NCBI GenBank assembly: GCA_025499705.1
Contig: JAFMVE010000049.1
Location: 1-41,640, forward strand
DNA length: 41,640 bases
Direction: 5' to 3'
Source: Carboxylicivirga caseinilyticus
GTDB taxonomy: Bacteria > Bacteroidota > Bacteroidia > Bacteroidales > Marinilabiliaceae
A program made the position numbers and the translations under genes. Below the pieces are notes generated by a model. That model was not told where the DNA came from, did not search any database, and saw only the letters and a program-made list of their open reading frames with translations. Below are positions 15,768-26,900 of the stretch, one piece after another. Numbering within the stretch: position 1 is the first letter of the stretch; each line of letters opens with the position of its first letter.

Positions 15768-16214
15768 TCAAACAAATTTATCCTTAAATTCAACATTAAA
15801 TAACTTCAATAATTTGACGTATTCATCTTTAAAACTACTCTTGTTATGATGGACCTTCTGATTCTCGATATACTTGATCACCGCATCTAACTGAGATTGA
15901 CCATAAGAAAAAGCCCCAAATCCCTCCTGCCATTTAAACTTATAACTACTAAATCCTTTATCTTCTATAAAATTTGTGGATGATTTTTTGATTTCTCTTA
16001 CCAGATCTGATAAACAACAGGAAGGCTTCATTCCAATTAGAAAATGGATATGATTATCTGTTCCATTAATGGATAGCATTTTCTGCCCTTTTTCTTTTAC
16101 AATACCTGAGATATATTTGTGTAATTCAGCTTCCCATTCCGACTGGATGGAAGCTTCTCTGTTTTGTATGGCAAATACAATCTGAATGTAGATTTGAGAA
16201 TAGGTATTGGCCAT
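15768..16214 (-). CDS. REP-associated tyrosine transposase (IS200-like, Y1 HUH)
   Basis: This 148-residue single-domain protein has the HUH motif H55-I56-H57 (DNHIHFLIG) and a catalytic tyrosine candidate, Y115 (VIKYIENQ). The block KWQEGFGAFSYGQSQ before the tyrosine and the N-terminal MANTYSQIYIQIVFA are typical of the stand-alone Bacteroidota IS200-like group. It shares little with the transposase at 1547-1978 beyond the fold. Its surroundings, multiple small palindromes on both sides instead of simple IS ends, fit the RAYT class, domesticated enzymes thought to spread or maintain REP hairpins. The coding sequence is intact. Whether it still acts on the nearby hairpins is inferred from proximity. 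Confidence 0.85.
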   Translation of the reverse strand: MANTYSQIYIQIVFAIQNREASIQSEWEAELHKYISGIVKEKGQKMLSINGTDNHIHFLIGMKPSCCLSDLVREIKKSSTNFIEDKGFSSYKFKWQEGFGAFSYGQSQLDAVIKYIENQKVHHNKSSFKDEYVKLLKLFNVEFKDKFV

Positions 16215-16648: not shown

Positions 16649-17218
16649 CTAATTATCTTCTTTAGCCAGTTCATGGACAGAAACATCATCAATAAAAACG
16701 TCTTTCACCACCGCATCCCCATTCATAATACTTACAAGAGCGTATGATATTTTACTGGTGTCGTTTAATGCCTCACGATGAACAATCTCAGCATTTTTGG
16801 CTTTAGATTCCTCCATATAAAAACGATTAAAATCGTAATCCACCCGTATCATTGCTGTGTCATTCCAAATACGATTACCAATAGTTGCCTTCACAAACAG
16901 TTGATTATCATCAATTATTGCTCTGGAAACCGATTCTATCTTAGCAAATCCATCCTTATCCATGCTAAAATAAACAAATACCTCATCTCCCCGACTCCAA
17001 CTTTCTGTACTGTCTTTCTTGATGCTATTTTCTTCATAATCCAATACAATATATTTTCCTCTGAACGGATCATTAGGATCGATTGGTGCTGTTTTTAGTT
17101 TAATTTCTGTTCCTTCTCTTAAAATTGCTTCTCTGTCCCAAATCATTTTAGAGGGTACAAACAATTGTACCAATGCTACCAGAATAAAAAGGGGCAATAT
17201 TATACTTTTCCTATTCAT
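16649..17218 (-). CDS. GDYXXLXY-type membrane-anchored protein
   Basis: This 189-residue protein has one N-terminal transmembrane or signal segment (about residues 5-21), then a mostly beta extracytoplasmic domain. The family motif appears as GKYIVLDY at residues 54-61, preceded by APIDPNDPFR, so the canonical D is K here. The GDYXXLXY family has no known biochemical role. Its start overlaps the end of the upstream DUF2157 gene by 8 nt, so the two are translated from one transcript and probably act together in the membrane, a pairing I recall from other genomes. Confidence 0.85.
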   Translation of the reverse strand: MNRKSIILPLFILVALVQLFVPSKMIWDREAILREGTEIKLKTAPIDPNDPFRGKYIVLDYEENSIKKDSTESWSRGDEVFVYFSMDKDGFAKIESVSRAIIDDNQLFVKATIGNRIWNDTAMIRVDYDFNRFYMEESKAKNAEIVHREALNDTSKISYALVSIMNGDAVVKDVFIDDVSVHELAKEDN

Positions 17219-18494
17219 TAGATTTCCTTTTTTTCAGCATTACATAATTTGAAGCAAAAAAGCCCACTCCCACTATAACAAATAACACACCTCTCAAAAC
17301 AAAACTCAGATCCGAATCAAAGAACCGACAAACAACCAATGCGGTAATGATTAGCAATCCATAATTCAATATTCCAAAATGATTTTTTTGAGCTCCCTGA
17401 AGAATAATTAAAATACCTAAACCCAATACAAATAAATTAATCAGGATAATCGCTACCGAAGAATTCAATCCAATAATATAAGTTGGTATCAACAAAAGAA
17501 ATATAAACGAGAATGGATTCATGTTTTCAATCGTCAATTCTCTTTTTCGATAGAATAGCATCACCAATGCTAAGGCAATCAAAACTATAATTGAGAGAAA
17601 TTCGTTCGAGCGTACCAATTCATTCATCAAAACTTCAGTCGTCCTCAGATGATCCCAAAACCAGTTAAAACTCAACATCAATAATATAATAATACTACCT
17701 AAGCTCCCCATAACGCTATAGCCATTACTTAATAATCTTTGCTTAGAAATGAATTCCCTGTCACCAATCAGACTAAAAATGCCAAATAAGACAATATATG
17801 CTATATACATTAACTCATCGAATTTTTCAGCCAGTGTACCAAGAATGATAACCAGCGATAAAGGAATGATCCAATTATGAAAAACCATAAAATTACTCGT
17901 TGGCTTTTTCCGATACAAATGATAATAATGAGGCATTATTAATAGTAATGACACCCAATACATGTATGAATCTGACGACGGATAAGTCCAGTAACTGGTT
18001 TCTGCAGCATAATAGGTAATTCCAGCCAAACAAAGCAATGATGCAACCGAAGATTTCATCAGATAAATCAGTGGAATACACAACAACATCCATGTAAGCA
18101 AAAATGAACTTAAATTACCCGGAATATTGTATATCTGACTCACCAGTGAGATACTTGCTCCAACAGCGAAAAACAAAAAAGCACTTACACTTTCTCGCCA
18201 TGCAATACTATCCCTTTTCTTTAGAATAACCCATCCGCTCAAATACTGACCGATAATAAGAGGAAGAAAAGCAAATATGGTTTTTGTCATTCTCGAAAGC
18301 TCATCCCAGTTATGAGCGATGATCAGAATAAGCCCAAGTCCAACCAATATAGCACCCAAGACACCAAAAACAATAAAAAGTTTATTGGTTGAGGAACTTT
18401 TTTTGCTTTTATAGTAATCCTGAATACGTTTTGCTGTTTCATCAGTGATAACACCTTCCTGCAATAATTCCGGTATTTCTTTTAGTATACCCAT
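17211..18494 (-). CDS. DUF2157-domain multi-pass membrane protein
   Basis: This 427-residue protein has a short cytoplasmic N-terminus (about 1-35, ILKEIPELLQEGVITDETAKRIQDYY) that fits the DUF2157 opening helix pair, followed by about twelve hydrophobic segments. The block GLGLILIIAHNWDELSRMTK is family-like. The function is unknown. The coupled downstream GDYXXLXY gene (8-nt overlap) suggests a two-part membrane system. No enzyme motif could be seen in the loops. Confidence 0.85.
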   Translation of the reverse strand: MGILKEIPELLQEGVITDETAKRIQDYYKSKKSSSTNKLFIVFGVLGAILVGLGLILIIAHNWDELSRMTKTIFAFLPLIIGQYLSGWVILKKRDSIAWRESVSAFLFFAVGASISLVSQIYNIPGNLSSFLLTWMLLCIPLIYLMKSSVASLLCLAGITYYAAETSYWTYPSSDSYMYWVSLLLIMPHYYHLYRKKPTSNFMVFHNWIIPLSLVIILGTLAEKFDELMYIAYIVLFGIFSLIGDREFISKQRLLSNGYSVMGSLGSIIILLMLSFNWFWDHLRTTEVLMNELVRSNEFLSIIVLIALALVMLFYRKRELTIENMNPFSFIFLLLIPTYIIGLNSSVAIILINLFVLGLGILIILQGAQKNHFGILNYGLLIITALVVCRFFDSDLSFVLRGVLFVIVGVGFFASNYVMLKKRKSNE

Positions 18495-18596
18495 AAGTTA
18501 GTTGATAAGTGGTCAAACATTGCAATTCTAAAATAAACAATATATTAATATTATCAACACTTATAATCAATAACCATTATTGCAGAGTATAACGTA

Positions 18597-18852
18597 GTAT
18601 AGCAACGGAACAAACTACAGTAGTAATGACGTCCAACCTAAGTAGCAAAGATTCAAAACTGTGGAAGTAATGTTCTAAAGTTGTTTAGCAATAACTAAAA
18701 ACAGTCTAGTACACGTTAGAAGTGAGGTAACAGCGAATAAAAGCACCGAAATTATGACAAATGATAAGGTATCACCACAAAAAAGCAACGTAGCAAGGGG
18801 TAAAAGTTAGGTAGCACCCCAAAAAAGTTTGGAAGCAGAGGGTAATAGCAGC
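18597..18852 (+). repeat. Degenerate 21-nt tandem array, about 12 units
   Basis: Units start at 18597, 18620 and 18642, then exactly every 21 nt from 18664 through 18832 (nine units). Two blocks are conserved: GTAGCA-like at unit positions 1-6 (GTAACA, GTATCA, GTAGCA, GTAGCA, GAAGCA in late units) and WAAAAG-like at 12-17. Positions 7-11 and the tail vary. The plus strand is poor in T. Stop codons fall in the repeats and no long frame covers it, so it is not coding. It fills most of the gap 18495-18915, ending 63 nt before the membrane-NUDIX gene. Confidence 0.7.
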
Positions 18853-18915
18853 CAAATTGACAGATTGATAGAAAATCTATAACAAACAGCTATCTTCGCA
18901 GCAAACAATCAAAAT

Positions 18916-19971
18916 ATGAACAGACTCGACCTCATCAAACGACTCCTGCCCGGCTTTTTACCCATCATTATTTTTATTGTAGTTGATGAAATATGGGGAA
19001 CTCTCTATGGTTTAATTATTGCTATTGCAGTAGGAATAATCGAGTTGGCATACAGCTATATTAAAGAACGAAAAACAGACCGGTTTGTAATACTTGATGT
19101 TGGGTTACTTGTTGCACTCGGGGCTGTTTCTATCGCTTTGGATAACGAGATATTTTTTAAATTGAAACCCGGAATCATCAGTCTTTTAATGACGGGTATG
19201 ATAGGCTTTTCCTCTTTTTCGAAACACAATATTCTTCTTCAGATGAGCCAACGTTATATGAAGCAGATACAGATGAATCCATACCAGGTTTGGGAAATGC
19301 AACAAAGCATGAAACGTATCTTTTGGGTGATGCTGGTATATTCTTGGGCTGCCATTGCTTCTTCATTTGTTGAGATAAAAGAGGTATGGAGTTTTATAAA
19401 TGGTGCCGGAATGTTTGTTGTGATGGGTATTTTCTTTGCTTTTGAATGGTACACGAAAAAGAAACAAGCTCCAAAGCTACAAAAAGAAGAATGGTTGCCT
19501 TTGGTGAATGAAAAAGGCCAGGTATTGGGTTCTGCTCCCCGATCAGTGGTTCATAATGGATCAAAACTATTACACCCGGTGGTTCATTTACATGTTTTTA
19601 ATGATGGAAAACTACTATTACAAAAGCGACCTATGAATAAGCTGGTTCAGCCCGGCAAATGGGATACAGCAGTTGGTGGTCATGTAAGTGCAGGCGAAAA
19701 TATTGAGCAAGCTCTGCAAAAAGAGACTTTTGAAGAAATTGGTTTGCAGCAATTCAAAGCTGAAGGACTAAAGCCCTATTTATGGAAAAGCGAAATAGAA
19801 CATGAGTTGGTATTTCTTTTCAAAACTAACCATAAAGGTCCATTCAAAAAAGCTGAAACCGAAGTAGATGAACTACGTTTCTGGTCGATAGACGAGATCA
19901 ATGAGAATTTGGGTAAAAATGTTTTTACGCCCAACTTTGAGCATGAGTTTAGGACTTATTTTGCTAAATAA
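18916..19971 (+). CDS. Fusion protein: YciB-like membrane domain plus NUDIX hydrolase
   Basis: The first 185 of 351 residues are multi-pass membrane sequence (five or six hydrophobic segments) resembling the intracellular septation protein A/YciB family. From about residue 195 a NUDIX domain follows, with the Nudix box at 255-277 (G255, E261, then KETFEEIGL), where Lys replaces the usual Arg. The opening EWLPLVNEKGQVLGSAPRSVVH and PGKWDTAVGGHVSAGEN resemble the isopentenyl-diphosphate isomerase-like or YfcD-like NUDIX group. A NUDIX enzyme tethered to the membrane would hydrolyse a nucleoside-diphosphate-linked compound or act on a lipid pyrophosphate; the substrate is unknown. The reading frame is continuous, so the fusion is real in this sequence. 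Confidence 0.85.
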   Translation: MNRLDLIKRLLPGFLPIIIFIVVDEIWGTLYGLIIAIAVGIIELAYSYIKERKTDRFVILDVGLLVALGAVSIALDNEIFFKLKPGIISLLMTGMIGFSSFSKHNILLQMSQRYMKQIQMNPYQVWEMQQSMKRIFWVMLVYSWAAIASSFVEIKEVWSFINGAGMFVVMGIFFAFEWYTKKKQAPKLQKEEWLPLVNEKGQVLGSAPRSVVHNGSKLLHPVVHLHVFNDGKLLLQKRPMNKLVQPGKWDTAVGGHVSAGENIEQALQKETFEEIGLQQFKAEGLKPYLWKSEIEHELVFLFKTNHKGPFKKAETEVDELRFWSIDEINENLGKNVFTPNFEHEFRTYFAK

Positions 19972-20303
19972 TATTGTAGGTAAAAGTGCTCTCTTTCATC
20001 TAAGCATATAAAGAACGGTCTTTAAATATAATCAACCACAAATTTCACTAATTAACACAAATTGTTCCGCATTAGCGGAACATCAATTGGTGAATCGAAG
20101 ATCGACGTAGTCAAAATTTAAAAATCAGCAAAGCTAAATATGCGCTTAATAAGTAATGATCTAAACCTTATGTTTAAAAGAATAGCTCTGAAAATTATCT
20201 TTTAACCCAACAATTAAACAAATTAATAATACATCAATTGCTTTACTGAAAATTGATTAATTGTCACATTGAAAATCGACTAATTGAATAATCAGCCAAT
20301 CGT
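19972..20303. repeat. Gene-free gap with a hairpin and degenerate short repeats
   Basis: TGTTCCGC (20063-20070) and GCGGAACA (20075-20082) form a perfect 8-bp stem around ATTA. Before it is a CAC/AATT-rich run (20029-20063). From about 20250 to 20330 there is a loose approximately 10-nt repeat of AATTG/AATCG-type words, reaching into the 3' end of mtaB. No gene was recognised. The hairpin could end the membrane-NUDIX transcript, though it lacks a T tract. Confidence 0.5.
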
Positions 20304-21608
20304 CTAATCAATCAATTGTCCAATCAAGACAGGCTCTTCCCTAGAATCTGTTAAACCTGTTAGCTTCACTTTGTAAAAGCTATTCTTCTTGACCTCATCA
20401 GCTTTAAACTGAACCGGAACATAATATTCACCATAACCATGAGCAAAGCCTCTTTTATCAATCTTTTCAACCAAAACAGTTTGCTCTGATCCAATAAACT
20501 GTTGGCGGTAATTTCTTTTGGCCTCCGCAGTCTTATGTCGTAGTTGTTCACTCCTATCCGACTTAACTTTTTCCGGAATCACATTGGTCATTCGGGCAGC
20601 CCGGGTGTTATCCCTTTTTGAGTATTTGAAAGTATGCACATGGCTAAAACCAATCTGATCAACCGAATCTAATGAAGCCTGAAAATCCTCTTCAGATTCA
20701 CCCGGAAAGCCAACAATAATATCTGTTGTAATATTAAATTTCGGATCAATTTCTCTCAGGCGCTGAACAATCTGTTTGTACGAACGATAGGTGTACATTC
20801 TTCGCATCTGCAACAAAACAGATTCAGAAGCACTTTGTAAGCACAAATGCAAATGAGGCGTCATTTTAGGATGTGTCAATAAAGCAAAAAACTCATCGTC
20901 GAAACCATCAGGTTCAATGGATGAAATACGCACCCTGAAATCAAATGGCAGATCCAGTATTTTTGCCAGAAGCCCTGAGAATTTGACTCCTTCGTGCTCA
21001 TAACGGCTAATATTCACACCGGTTATCACAACTTCTTTATAGCCAAAACCAACCACTTCTGTAATATTCTTCAGAATATCCTCTACTGGCCGACTGGTAG
21101 CTCTTCCTCTTACTTTGGGAATAATACAGAAAGTACAGAAGTTATCACACCCATCCTGAATCTTGATCATACTGCGCGTATGAAATGTCTCAGATGCTGG
21201 CGCATAGTTAAAAACGCCACCTTGTGTAGTATTTGCAGGAACAATCTCTTTATTAAAATGAGCCTGCACCAATTGAGGAATAGCACTTTTGTTTTCGTTA
21301 TCCACCACATAGGCATTGGGATACAGTTCTTCCAAAGCCTCTTTATGATGATTGGCCATACAGCCGGTTATAATCAGCATTCCGTTATGACCATTCTTCA
21401 ACGCATGATTAACTGCATACCGCGATTTTTGATCGCTTTGGTTAGTAACGGTACAGGTATTCACCACAAACACATCGGTATCTTTGCTGTCTTCTACCAC
21501 ATCGTAGCCCATAGCCACAAATTTCGATGCCATCGCATCGGTTTCAAACTGATTTAACCGACAGCCCAAAGTCTTAAAACCTACCCTTTTCTTTGCTAAC
21601 TGAAACAT
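20304..21608 (-). CDS. mtaB: tRNA t6A37 methylthiotransferase MtaB
   Basis: MtaB adds a methylthio group to N6-threonylcarbamoyladenosine at position 37 of ANN-decoding tRNAs, making ms2t6A. The 434-residue protein has the UPF0004 domain with cluster cysteines C16, C52 and C83, a radical SAM domain with C154, C158 and C161 (GCDNFCTFC), and a C-terminal TRAM-like region (about 370-434). The opening RVGFKTLGCRLNQFETDAM is characteristic of MtaB. The start codon overlaps the stop of the upstream MiaB-like gene by one base (TAATG), so translation is coupled. Confidence 0.95.
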   Translation of the reverse strand: MFQLAKKRVGFKTLGCRLNQFETDAMASKFVAMGYDVVEDSKDTDVFVVNTCTVTNQSDQKSRYAVNHALKNGHNGMLIITGCMANHHKEALEELYPNAYVVDNENKSAIPQLVQAHFNKEIVPANTTQGGVFNYAPASETFHTRSMIKIQDGCDNFCTFCIIPKVRGRATSRPVEDILKNITEVVGFGYKEVVITGVNISRYEHEGVKFSGLLAKILDLPFDFRVRISSIEPDGFDDEFFALLTHPKMTPHLHLCLQSASESVLLQMRRMYTYRSYKQIVQRLREIDPKFNITTDIIVGFPGESEEDFQASLDSVDQIGFSHVHTFKYSKRDNTRAARMTNVIPEKVKSDRSEQLRHKTAEAKRNYRQQFIGSEQTVLVEKIDKRGFAHGYGEYYVPVQFKADEVKKNSFYKVKLTGLTDSREEPVLIGQLID

Positions 21609-23969: not shown

Positions 23970-26900
23970 ATGAATGAATTAAATCGAAGGTTCGTTATCA
24001 CCTTTCTTTTAGTATCAATACTTTCAGTATCTGCTTATTCACAATTTTCACAGTATCGCTTTGAAAGTCTGGATACAGATGATGGGCTTAGTAATAACTC
24101 GGTTAATTCCATTATACAGGACAGCAGAGGTTACATTTGGTTTGGAAGTTATTATGGATTAAACAGGTACGATGGATATGAAATAACTAATTTCTACCAT
24201 AAGCACGATGAACCCAACACTATTTCTGACAACTTCATTACTTCGCTGGTAGAAGACGAAGAAGGAAATATATGGATAGGTACAAAATTCGGATTAAACA
24301 GATTTCATCACGACACTGAACAAATCAGTACATTTTATGTAGACACAGTCCAAGGTTATTCTATCTCAAATAACCAGATTGGTGCCCTATTAATGGACGA
24401 TCAAAACAGGTTATGGATTGGAACAATGGGTGGAGGATTAAATTCTTATAATAAAGAGACAAAAACTTTTGATGCCTTTCCACAAAACCATAGGCAATAT
24501 AACTACATTAATTATATATCTGCATTGTGCAATGGTAGTGATGATGAACTGTGGATGGGGACCTATGGAAATGGACTTAGTCTGTATAACAAAAATTCCA
24601 GGACATTTAAACACTTCGACTTTGAAAACATGCAAATTAACAGTTTGCTTGATGATGGATTGGGTTTTATCTGGATTGCCACCAATAACATGGGTTTATA
24701 TAAATTTAGTAAGGAGAATTATCAATATATAAAGCTAAATCTTAACAAAGATGGTAATGACAATATCAACATTATTATGTCCTTATCTCAATCTCAAGAT
24801 GGCAAAATATTAGCTTCAATTGATGGTGATTGTATTTATGTGATTGATCAAACAAATAATCAGGTAATCTACAATACAGAACTGGCAAAAGCATTCAGAG
24901 GACTTGATACCAAAGCCGTTTATACAGTATTTGTTGATGGAAACGGATTATATTGGATTGGTACTATAGGTAAAGGTATCAGATTGTTAAATCTGGACCG
25001 AAACCGCTTTACCTATTTTACCAATGAGCCGAATAATCCCTTCAGCCTGAGTGAAGATGCTGTGATATCATTACTGCAGGACAATAAGGATAGAATCTGG
25101 ATTGGAACTGACGGTGGAGGCCTAAACCTTTTTGATATACATAACGGAAGATTTAAGAGATATACTCAACAAAGTTCTAACCTGAAAAGTAATGTTATTA
25201 AACGATTGTTTGAAGATATAAAAGGTAACATCTGGTTGGGTACTTATGGTGGTGGATTAGCTTTATTCAACCCTTCAAACGGTAATTTTAACTCATACAA
25301 TCCAATTGAACCTACTAAAAATGAAGAACTTTATTTATCGGTATGGTCAATCGGCCAACAGGAAGCTAACCAGCTTTGGGTAGGTACACTTGGGAATGGT
25401 CTTTTTAATTTTGATATTCAATCAAAAGAGTTCAAACCTTTAAAAGAAATATTTCCCGCTTTAGGCTATGTCTTAAATGATTATATACTAAGCTTAAAAG
25501 TTGACTCTAAAAACAATTTATGGATTGGAACCAGCAATGGTGTTTACGTATGGTACTATCAAACCAAACAATATAAGCGCTGGCTATTTGATGAGATCAA
25601 CAATAGTGGCGTTGGCAAGAATGCAATATTAACCATTAATGAGAGTTATGATGGCAACATGTGGCTTGGCACAAACGGCGGTGGAGTCATTATTATCGAT
25701 CCCCAAAATGGTACTTTTAATGAACTAGGCATAAAAGATGGATTGGCTCAGGAACAGGTTTATGATATCAAACAAGATAACAACAATCGGATATGGATTG
25801 CCACCCAGGGAGGAATATCAAAATACGATATAGAAACCGGACGTTTCCAGAATTTTGATAATCGGGATGGATTGATTGGCAGTGCTTTCAACACTTTGAT
25901 GATAACCGATTCTGATCTGATATTTGCTGGAAGTGTTAAAGGTTTAAATTATTTCAATCCTAACATTACAAAAGAAAATGCTTATGTTCCTCATGTTCAG
26001 TTGACCAACCTACTGATTAATAATGTACCCGTAAAAGTAGGTAGTGCTAATAGTCCGTTGACTAAAAACATTGCTGATACTAAAGAATTGGTACTAAATC
26101 ACAAACAAAATAATTTTGGAATTGAATTCGTGGCCATCAACTACTATTCAGAAAAAAACACCTATAGCTACCTGTTAGAAAACTCTTCTGAAAGCTGGAG
26201 TGAAAATTCTACAAACCGTATTGCCAAATACAATAATTTAAAACCGGGTAATTACATTTTTCGAGTTAAAGCTGCCAATAATGATGGTATCTGGAGTCAT
26301 TCAGAGACAATACTTCACGTAAAAGTATTAGCACCATGGTGGAAAAGATGGTATGCCTTTCTTGCCTATTTTCTTACTCTGGGCATTATTATATATGCCT
26401 ATATTCGTTATTCTATTCTTTGGATTGATTTAAAAAGAAAACTTCAGTTTGAATCAATGGAAAGTCAGCGTATTAAGGAGCTTAACCAGATGCGTCTGCA
26501 ATTTTTCACCAACATATCTCATGAATTCCGTACGCCATTAACCTTAATTGCCGGCCCATTGGAAGCCCTTCGAAAAAGACTAACCCTGAATAACGATGAC
26601 AAGGAGCTCTTTGTGATTATGCATAAAAACACCAACCTTTTATTACGATTAATAAATCAGGTGATGGATTTCAGAAAAGTTGAAACCGGCTCAATGGAAT
26701 TAAATGTTACCACAGGCGATATTATTTCGTTTATAAAAGAGTCAGCTCAGGCTTTTTCATATATGGCTACTGAACACCAAATTAATTTCAAAATCAAAAC
26801 TAGTATTGAAAGCCTTGTTATTCAATTTGATGAAGATGTTATTGAAAAGGTAATATACAACCTCCTATCTAATGCTTTTAAATATGGCAAAGAAAATGGC

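Follow-up and report, generated by a model that had tools for sequence, protein, structure and literature searches.

The stretch of DNA analyzed here (the window) comprises 41,640 nt of a Carboxylicivirga caseinilyticus contig (JAFMVE010000049.1). At 18495-18915 the window has a gap between two divergent genes, coding for a DUF2157 membrane protein and an IspA-NUDIX fusion protein, and this gap houses a tandem array of 21-nt units (Table 1). In a sequence-only reading of the window the array had been described as a degenerate 21-nt repeat with nine in-phase units at 18664 to 18832, and these coordinates are correct. Within 18590-18860, lag 21 gave 109 matches where 72.5 were expected (z 5.3), and lag 42 reached z 5.0. 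None of 2000 dinucleotide shuffles equaled the lag-21 count, and none attained z 5.3 at any lag from 3 to 59. Comparison with shuffled sequence, which had been proposed as a check, thus confirmed a strict 21-nt period. A tandem-repeat finder had been proposed as well, and here the outcome was negative: Tandem Repeats Finder left the array out of its output with the minimum score lowered to 30. Further details of the description agreed with our counts. The plus strand is T-poor (54 T and 116 A among the 271 nt), the complementary motifs GGGGT (18797-18801) and ACCCC (18816-18820) are both present, and no reading frame runs through the array, each of the six frames having at least three stops within 252 nt.

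Table 1. Features of the window and arrays in related genomes. Positions without a prefix are those of the window; G000 is the genome of the window.
Feature	Genome	Position	Strand	Remark
IS200-like Y1 transposase gene (PF01797)	G000	1547-1978
IS200-like Y1 transposase gene (PF01797)	G000	15768-16214
GDYXXLXY gene	G000	16649-17218
DUF2157 membrane protein gene	G000	17211-18494	-	divergent; overlaps GDYXXLXY gene
21-nt tandem array	G000	18597-18852	+	best in-phase stretch 18664-18852; earlier units fit the unit poorly
Special unit (AAAGCACCGAAATTATGACAA)	G000	18740-18760	+	counterpart of the AGTTATGACAA-type unit in the relatives' NUDIX, recR and PQLLE arrays
Terminal unit with CAAATTGACAG	G000	18845-18865	+	close variants close the recR array and the G001 and G002 PQLLE arrays
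TATCTTCG, promoter -7-like box	G000	18891-18898	+	-25 from ATG; 46 nt past the start of the terminal unit
IspA (PF04279)-NUDIX (PF00293) fusion gene	G000	18916-19971	+	downstream of the array
Degenerate intergenic repeat with CAATTG/CAATCG motifs	G000	20220-20340		downstream of the NUDIX gene
16-nt unit within the CAATTG/CAATCG repeat	G000	20289-20327		Tandem Repeats Finder
Array before IspA-NUDIX gene	G000, G001, G002
Array before PQLLE-family gene (NF052641)	G000, G001, G002
Y1-like protein	G000	L080:7450-8013		about 1.4 kb downstream of the PQLLE array; judged by eye
Array before DUF2089 gene	G001, G002
Array before second DUF2089 zinc-ribbon/HTH copy	G002	L289		own array of about six units
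Array before recR	G001 only
Array before ABC-F gene	G002 only			weak: R1 E 0.16, R2 E 0.02
Other 21-nt arrays	G002	L169:15600-16010, L168:12784-13230, L180:4330-4640, L173:9440-9760		ATTATTT, AATATTTT, AAATTTT and AAAA/TTTT types
Palindrome-like tandem repeats	G002	L162:870-970, L196:14510-14620		23 and 22 nt

A protein search with the NUDIX-gene product matched all 14 genomes of the genus (G012 with the first half of the protein only) and 46 of 60 relatives overall, some through the NUDIX domain alone. Thirty NUDIX loci were fetched, and 29 of them could be read upstream (L006 comes without upstream DNA). A 21-nt period was expected in the orthologous gaps of close relatives and was indeed found in two sister species. 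It is strong in three of the 29 gaps, those of the window (z 5.4), G001 (z 8.6) and G002 (z 6.8), both relatives thus exceeding the window, and the next-highest value is 2.4. These z values, like those of the L044 and G002 gap scans below, come from plain base shuffles. The NUDIX-fusion proteins of G001 and G002 are 95% and 94% identical to the window protein. The DUF2157 gene was found in six of the 14 genus genomes. Beyond G000, G001 and G002 it lies on a different contig from the NUDIX gene (three genomes), and therefore no array-less orthologous gap is available for comparison. Upstream of the DUF2157 gene, G004 (L044) carries heptad repeats of the GGACTAC and GCACTAT types, with z as high as 8.5 at lag 7.

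We then built a model of three units, using sequence only, with ten rows from G000, G001 and G002 (R1), and the search recovered the same arrays elsewhere in these three genomes (Table 1). No convincing match turned up in the 11 remaining genus genomes (best E 0.13). Under stricter filters, R1 matched three of 71 genomes of the family at E 0.001 and one of 395 genomes drawn from the phylum at E 1e-4, the latter being the window's own genome. With a longer model (R2, six rows), matches below E 0.02 were confined to G000, G001 and G002. The suggestion to search related genomes for other copies was thus borne out, with PQLLE, DUF2089 and recR loci, and probably an ABC-F locus, found in sister species. 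Although the ABC-F array is weak, none of 1000 dinucleotide shuffles reached its lag-21 count, and it is probably a member of the dispersed family. At all six distinct loci, of which two are paralogs and the ABC-F locus is weak, the array precedes the next gene on the same strand. Arrays have 9-12 units at the NUDIX, recR and PQLLE loci and 5-6 at DUF2089. Judging from these sequence matches, and as far as searched, this is a small dispersed array family in three sister species. Eight pattern matches in viral contigs were all inspected; they lie mostly in open frames, and none resembles the array family. An order-level pattern search hit three of 393 genomes, two of which hold unrelated palindromic arrays of about 21 nt (L154, L156 and L159; AAAGCTACATAGCTC and AAAGCCGATCAGCTTT types). 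Our literature search, with most subscription papers outside its reach, met no description of such 21-nt arrays among the titles and abstract openings listed. A protein-coding repeat was rejected, with a stop in every frame in six of nine arrays (three NUDIX, G002 PQLLE and two DUF2089); the recR array and the G001 and G000 PQLLE arrays each have one open frame, on the minus strand.

The unit of the array family reads AAAGYNNNNNAGCR-N5-YA, and the relatives sharpen it to YA-AAAGY-N4-[GT]AGCR-N5 (columns 20-21, 1-5 and 10-14). The sequence-only reading had proposed two conserved blocks with variable positions between them. The blocks hold, but the supposedly variable stretch is frequently a CCCC or GGGG tract and not free. 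The NUDIX, recR and PQLLE arrays include a AGTTATGACAA-type unit near their end, and their terminal unit finishes with TTGACAG or a sequence close to it. In the G000 PQLLE array the usual terminal unit is missing.

The NUDIX, PQLLE and recR arrays also have a common order of units. We compared order scores with 2000 unit permutations, and all ten pairs among the G001 and G002 NUDIX, G001 recR, and G001 and G002 PQLLE arrays gave p 0.0005, the smallest possible value. Pairs with G000 arrays gave p 0.0005-0.007, with the exception of G000 NUDIX against G000 PQLLE (p 0.20). The DUF2089 arrays scored p 0.03-0.93 against other arrays and therefore have little or no order in common with them. In the three orthologous pairs compared (NUDIX, PQLLE and DUF2089), the G001 array exceeds that of G002 by one 21-nt unit. 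At recR, the array is found solely in G001 among five species aligned; the 520 nt aligned upstream of recR in G000, G002, G003 and G005 contain none. Immediately ahead of recR, G001, G000 and G002 carry the identical sequence CTTTTTATTACCTTTG, which varies in G003 and G005. Since the G001 gap has other extra DNA, the difference is one of presence and absence and not a clean insertion. Likewise, the aligned ABC-F gaps of G001, G000, G003 and G005 are without an array.

A degenerate minisatellite family without binding function, in which 21-bp units duplicate in tandem, spread by recombination and decay neutrally, would account for the variation of unit number in whole units. It also agrees with the poor fit of the upstream part of the G000 arrays to the unit and with the local homogenization of spacers, which in the second DUF2089 array (G002, L289) have turned to another sequence, e.g. 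CGATGGTC. Nevertheless, we consider this explanation unlikely, though one to be taken seriously. Three unlinked arrays keep the unit order and the special unit, and the columns do not decay alike. Between G000 and G001, 43 of 180 positions in block columns differ compared to 92 of 198 in spacer columns (Fisher 6e-6). Between G001 and G002 the counts are 27 of 270 and 52 of 297 (p 0.011), with none of the three loci significant singly (p 0.10-0.27). Block columns, which had been picked from the same units that were later tested, thus change at about half the rate of spacer columns. In line with this, simulations of uniform column decay seldom reached the observed heterogeneity (0, 1, 1, 2, 10, 14 and 17 of 500 in seven arrays).

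The minisatellite explanation further draws on the presence in G002 of other 21-nt arrays with different units. We scanned 228 gaps of 140 nt or more in 40 stretches of this genome, which make up 0.8 Mb of 6.27 Mb, and lag 21 was the commonest strong lag, with five gaps at z of at least 4.2, followed by lag 7 with four. Four of the five gaps were strong with dinucleotide shuffles too (z 5.9-8.9, reached by 0 of 1000), the stretches tested in this way having been picked for their 21-nt period; the fifth was weak (z 2.7, reached by 5 of 1000). The units of the four strong arrays (Table 1) look unrelated to the NUDIX-array family. Two of the five gaps, including the strongest (L169, z 8.9), lie between convergent genes, where an operator is not expected, and these two gaps speak against an operator function of the array (see below). 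Samples of 0.4 Mb from G000, G005 and G021 contained one 21-nt gap each. The gap in G021 (L249) proved to be a run of N and was discarded as an artefact, and that of G000, the sole one there, is accompanied by lags 7 and 14. We take these counts as suggestive only. Since G002 yielded four further strong arrays in 0.8 Mb, 21-bp-phased arrays may form a wider class in this lineage, in which each array has a unit of its own.

Several loci with a common right end, together with presence or absence at orthologous sites, could also point to a mobile element that is non-autonomous and relies on a transposase such as an IS200-like (Y1) enzyme. Y1 transposase genes do occur in the window, and, judged by eye, a gene near the G000 PQLLE array codes for a similar protein. 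However, terminal inverted repeats as in MITEs are absent from all three arrays examined (the G001 PQLLE array has one short internal palindrome), and no target duplication is recognizable in gaps that are too diverged to show the array ends. At the cut-off used, the flanks of different loci, the right flanks beyond the terminal unit included, have nothing in common beyond the arrays. Moreover, Y1 transposases act on hairpins. We therefore regard a mobile element as very improbable. REP/BIME elements with their RAYT enzymes resemble the family in being dispersed intergenic repeats, and Y1 transposases occur in the window and a GTAG/GGAG-like tetranucleotide in the unit. They are hairpin-forming imperfect palindromes, whereas the array unit forms no hairpin and recurs strictly every 21 nt; the window array has no inverted repeat.

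The position of the arrays relative to promoters was analyzed next. At the NUDIX locus of all three species the terminal unit is at -71 and TATCTTCG at -25 from the start codon. We take TATCTTCG to be a -7-like box on the basis of the Bacteroidota consensus TAnnTTTG. The distance from terminal unit to box is 46 nt at NUDIX, about 43 at recR, 59 at the G001 PQLLE gene and 95 at ABC-F, and thus not constant; the last three were counted by hand, and PQLLE distances hinge on the choice between two nearby ATGs. Within 130 nt of the PQLLE and DUF2089 start codons no TAnnTTYG box was found. At NUDIX, recR and ABC-F the array sits upstream of the promoter-like box, which argues against an RNA function, i.e. 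a repeated leader or small RNA in which complementary G-tract and C-tract units pair. In the NUDIX, recR, and G001 and G002 PQLLE arrays, the terminal unit is preceded by a C-rich and then a G-rich spacer, and the complementary pair noted in the window recurs there. RNAalifold on six of these arrays gave ten pairs, four of them with a change kept on both sides. However, its covariation term was unfavorable (+0.5), and fold energies were ordinary in nine of ten stretches (z -1.5 to +1.6 on the plus strand, -1.8 to +0.6 on the minus strand). The tenth stretch, ABC-F, reached z -4.3 and -3.2 and also takes in a terminator-like hairpin that lies outside the array. Rfam and tRNA searches of the window gave no match. 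The complementary tracts are thus a recurrent feature of the arrays, but one with ordinary folding, and we consider an RNA function very improbable.

Intrinsically curved DNA, in which phased A-tracts upstream of promoters act without a sequence-specific protein, initially appeared well supported. In a wedge model, the ratio of end-to-end distance to contour length was 0.46-0.55 in seven of ten array stretches compared to shuffle means of 0.83-0.90, and at most 1.7% of 300 dinucleotide shuffles were as low in those seven. The effect is strong when dinucleotide shuffles are the reference. Among 400 column-permuted periodic arrays, in contrast, 11-66% were as curved or more for each of nine arrays, and curvature was demoted for this reason. 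Furthermore, neither DUF2089 array is curved, and curvature is weak in the G000 PQLLE array. Curvature as the function of the arrays is therefore improbable.

There is in our judgment an even chance that the array is an upstream operator where a single DNA-binding protein has about 10-12 tandem sites, and that this operator was copied to other promoters as a module. Protein subunits would be placed every 21 bp, i.e. every two helical turns, on one face of the DNA beside the core promoter. Each unit would offer two recognition blocks, YAAAAGY and [GT]AGCR, about one turn apart and together spanning about 16 bp, plus a 5-bp spacer. Slippage or unequal exchange would shift the unit number by whole 21-bp steps, so that the helical phase would be kept. 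Copying of the array as a module before other genes would give rise to the common unit order, and the genes recruited in this way may form a small, young regulon. Several results speak against an operator. The distance from terminal unit to -7-like box varies, the PQLLE and DUF2089 genes show no TAnnTTYG box, and the unit numbers far exceed the two sites of a LytTR or AraC operator. The choice of block columns from the units tested and the other extra DNA in the G001 recR gap weaken the case further. A row of proteins on one DNA face had been put forward in the sequence-only reading, and pitch, blocks, slower change of the blocks and upstream position fit this idea best; it is a plausible, partly supported proposal that the comparison of genomes strengthens.

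The accompanying analogy to iterons and partition sites gained no support. Plasmid iterons likewise are direct repeats of about 21 bp, arranged in tandem and in helical phase, whereas the array occurs at several loci per genome. We scanned 16 of the 35 listed open reading frames of at least 100 amino acids in the window for protein families, direct neighbors included (three of the 16 without family), and found no Rep or ParA/ParB family and thus no adjacent replication initiator gene.

Regulators with a comparable operator geometry are better matches. LytTR operators lie directly ahead of the promoter and consist of 9-bp direct repeats, in most cases 12 bp apart (PMC6193735). The array resembles them in its direct repeats, its upstream position and its 21-nt pitch, which corresponds to 9-bp repeats 12 bp apart. 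Columns 1-9 deviate by at most one mismatch from the LytTR consensus in 29 of 90 units compared to 6 of 1800 other-phase positions, a post hoc count on units that are not independent. LytTR operators differ in having two repeats, a pair close to the -35 region, whereas the arrays have 9-12 units (5-6 at DUF2089), a second conserved block, and a terminal unit that precedes the -7-like box by 43-95 nt. No LytTR family was detected in the 16 window proteins scanned. AraC-family monomers place two HTH motifs in two contiguous major grooves (PMC6018408). AraC/XylS operators share with the array direct repeats and two boxes about one turn apart within about 16 bp (here columns 20-5 and 10-14). The pitch of araI1-araI2 is 21 bp, as in the array, and the AraC site has a TAGC box; at column 10 the arrays have TAGC in 16 of 90 units and GAGC in 27 of 90. 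The arrays differ in their greater unit number and in a second box unlike the AraC site. By analogy, LytTR is matched by the consensus of the first block, and AraC is the better match for the two-block layout. Both geometries fit, and the putative binder may be neither. An AraC-HTH hybrid two-component gene is located at window position 23970, and nothing ties it to the array. DUF2089 was an attractive candidate binder, because it combines a zinc ribbon with an HTH, has its own array, and its second copy in G002 is also preceded by one. A search of seven genomes detected the gene in G001 and G002 and a 40% relative of it in G004. It was not found in G000, although G000 keeps two arrays, and DUF2089 is therefore no more than a lead.

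A more far-reaching form of the operator reading, a portable polymeric operator of about ten 21-bp sites that would have spread as a module and drawn the unrelated recR, NUDIX, PQLLE, DUF2089 and ABC-F genes into one regulon in a few close species, goes beyond what we would expect to hold and is rather doubtful. If the arrays are operators, they would represent a natural long, phase-locked protein-binding row on bacterial DNA. They would then also show, caught among sister species that have or lack the array at the orthologous promoters of recR and ABC-F, a regulon that grows by copying whole binding arrays before new promoters.
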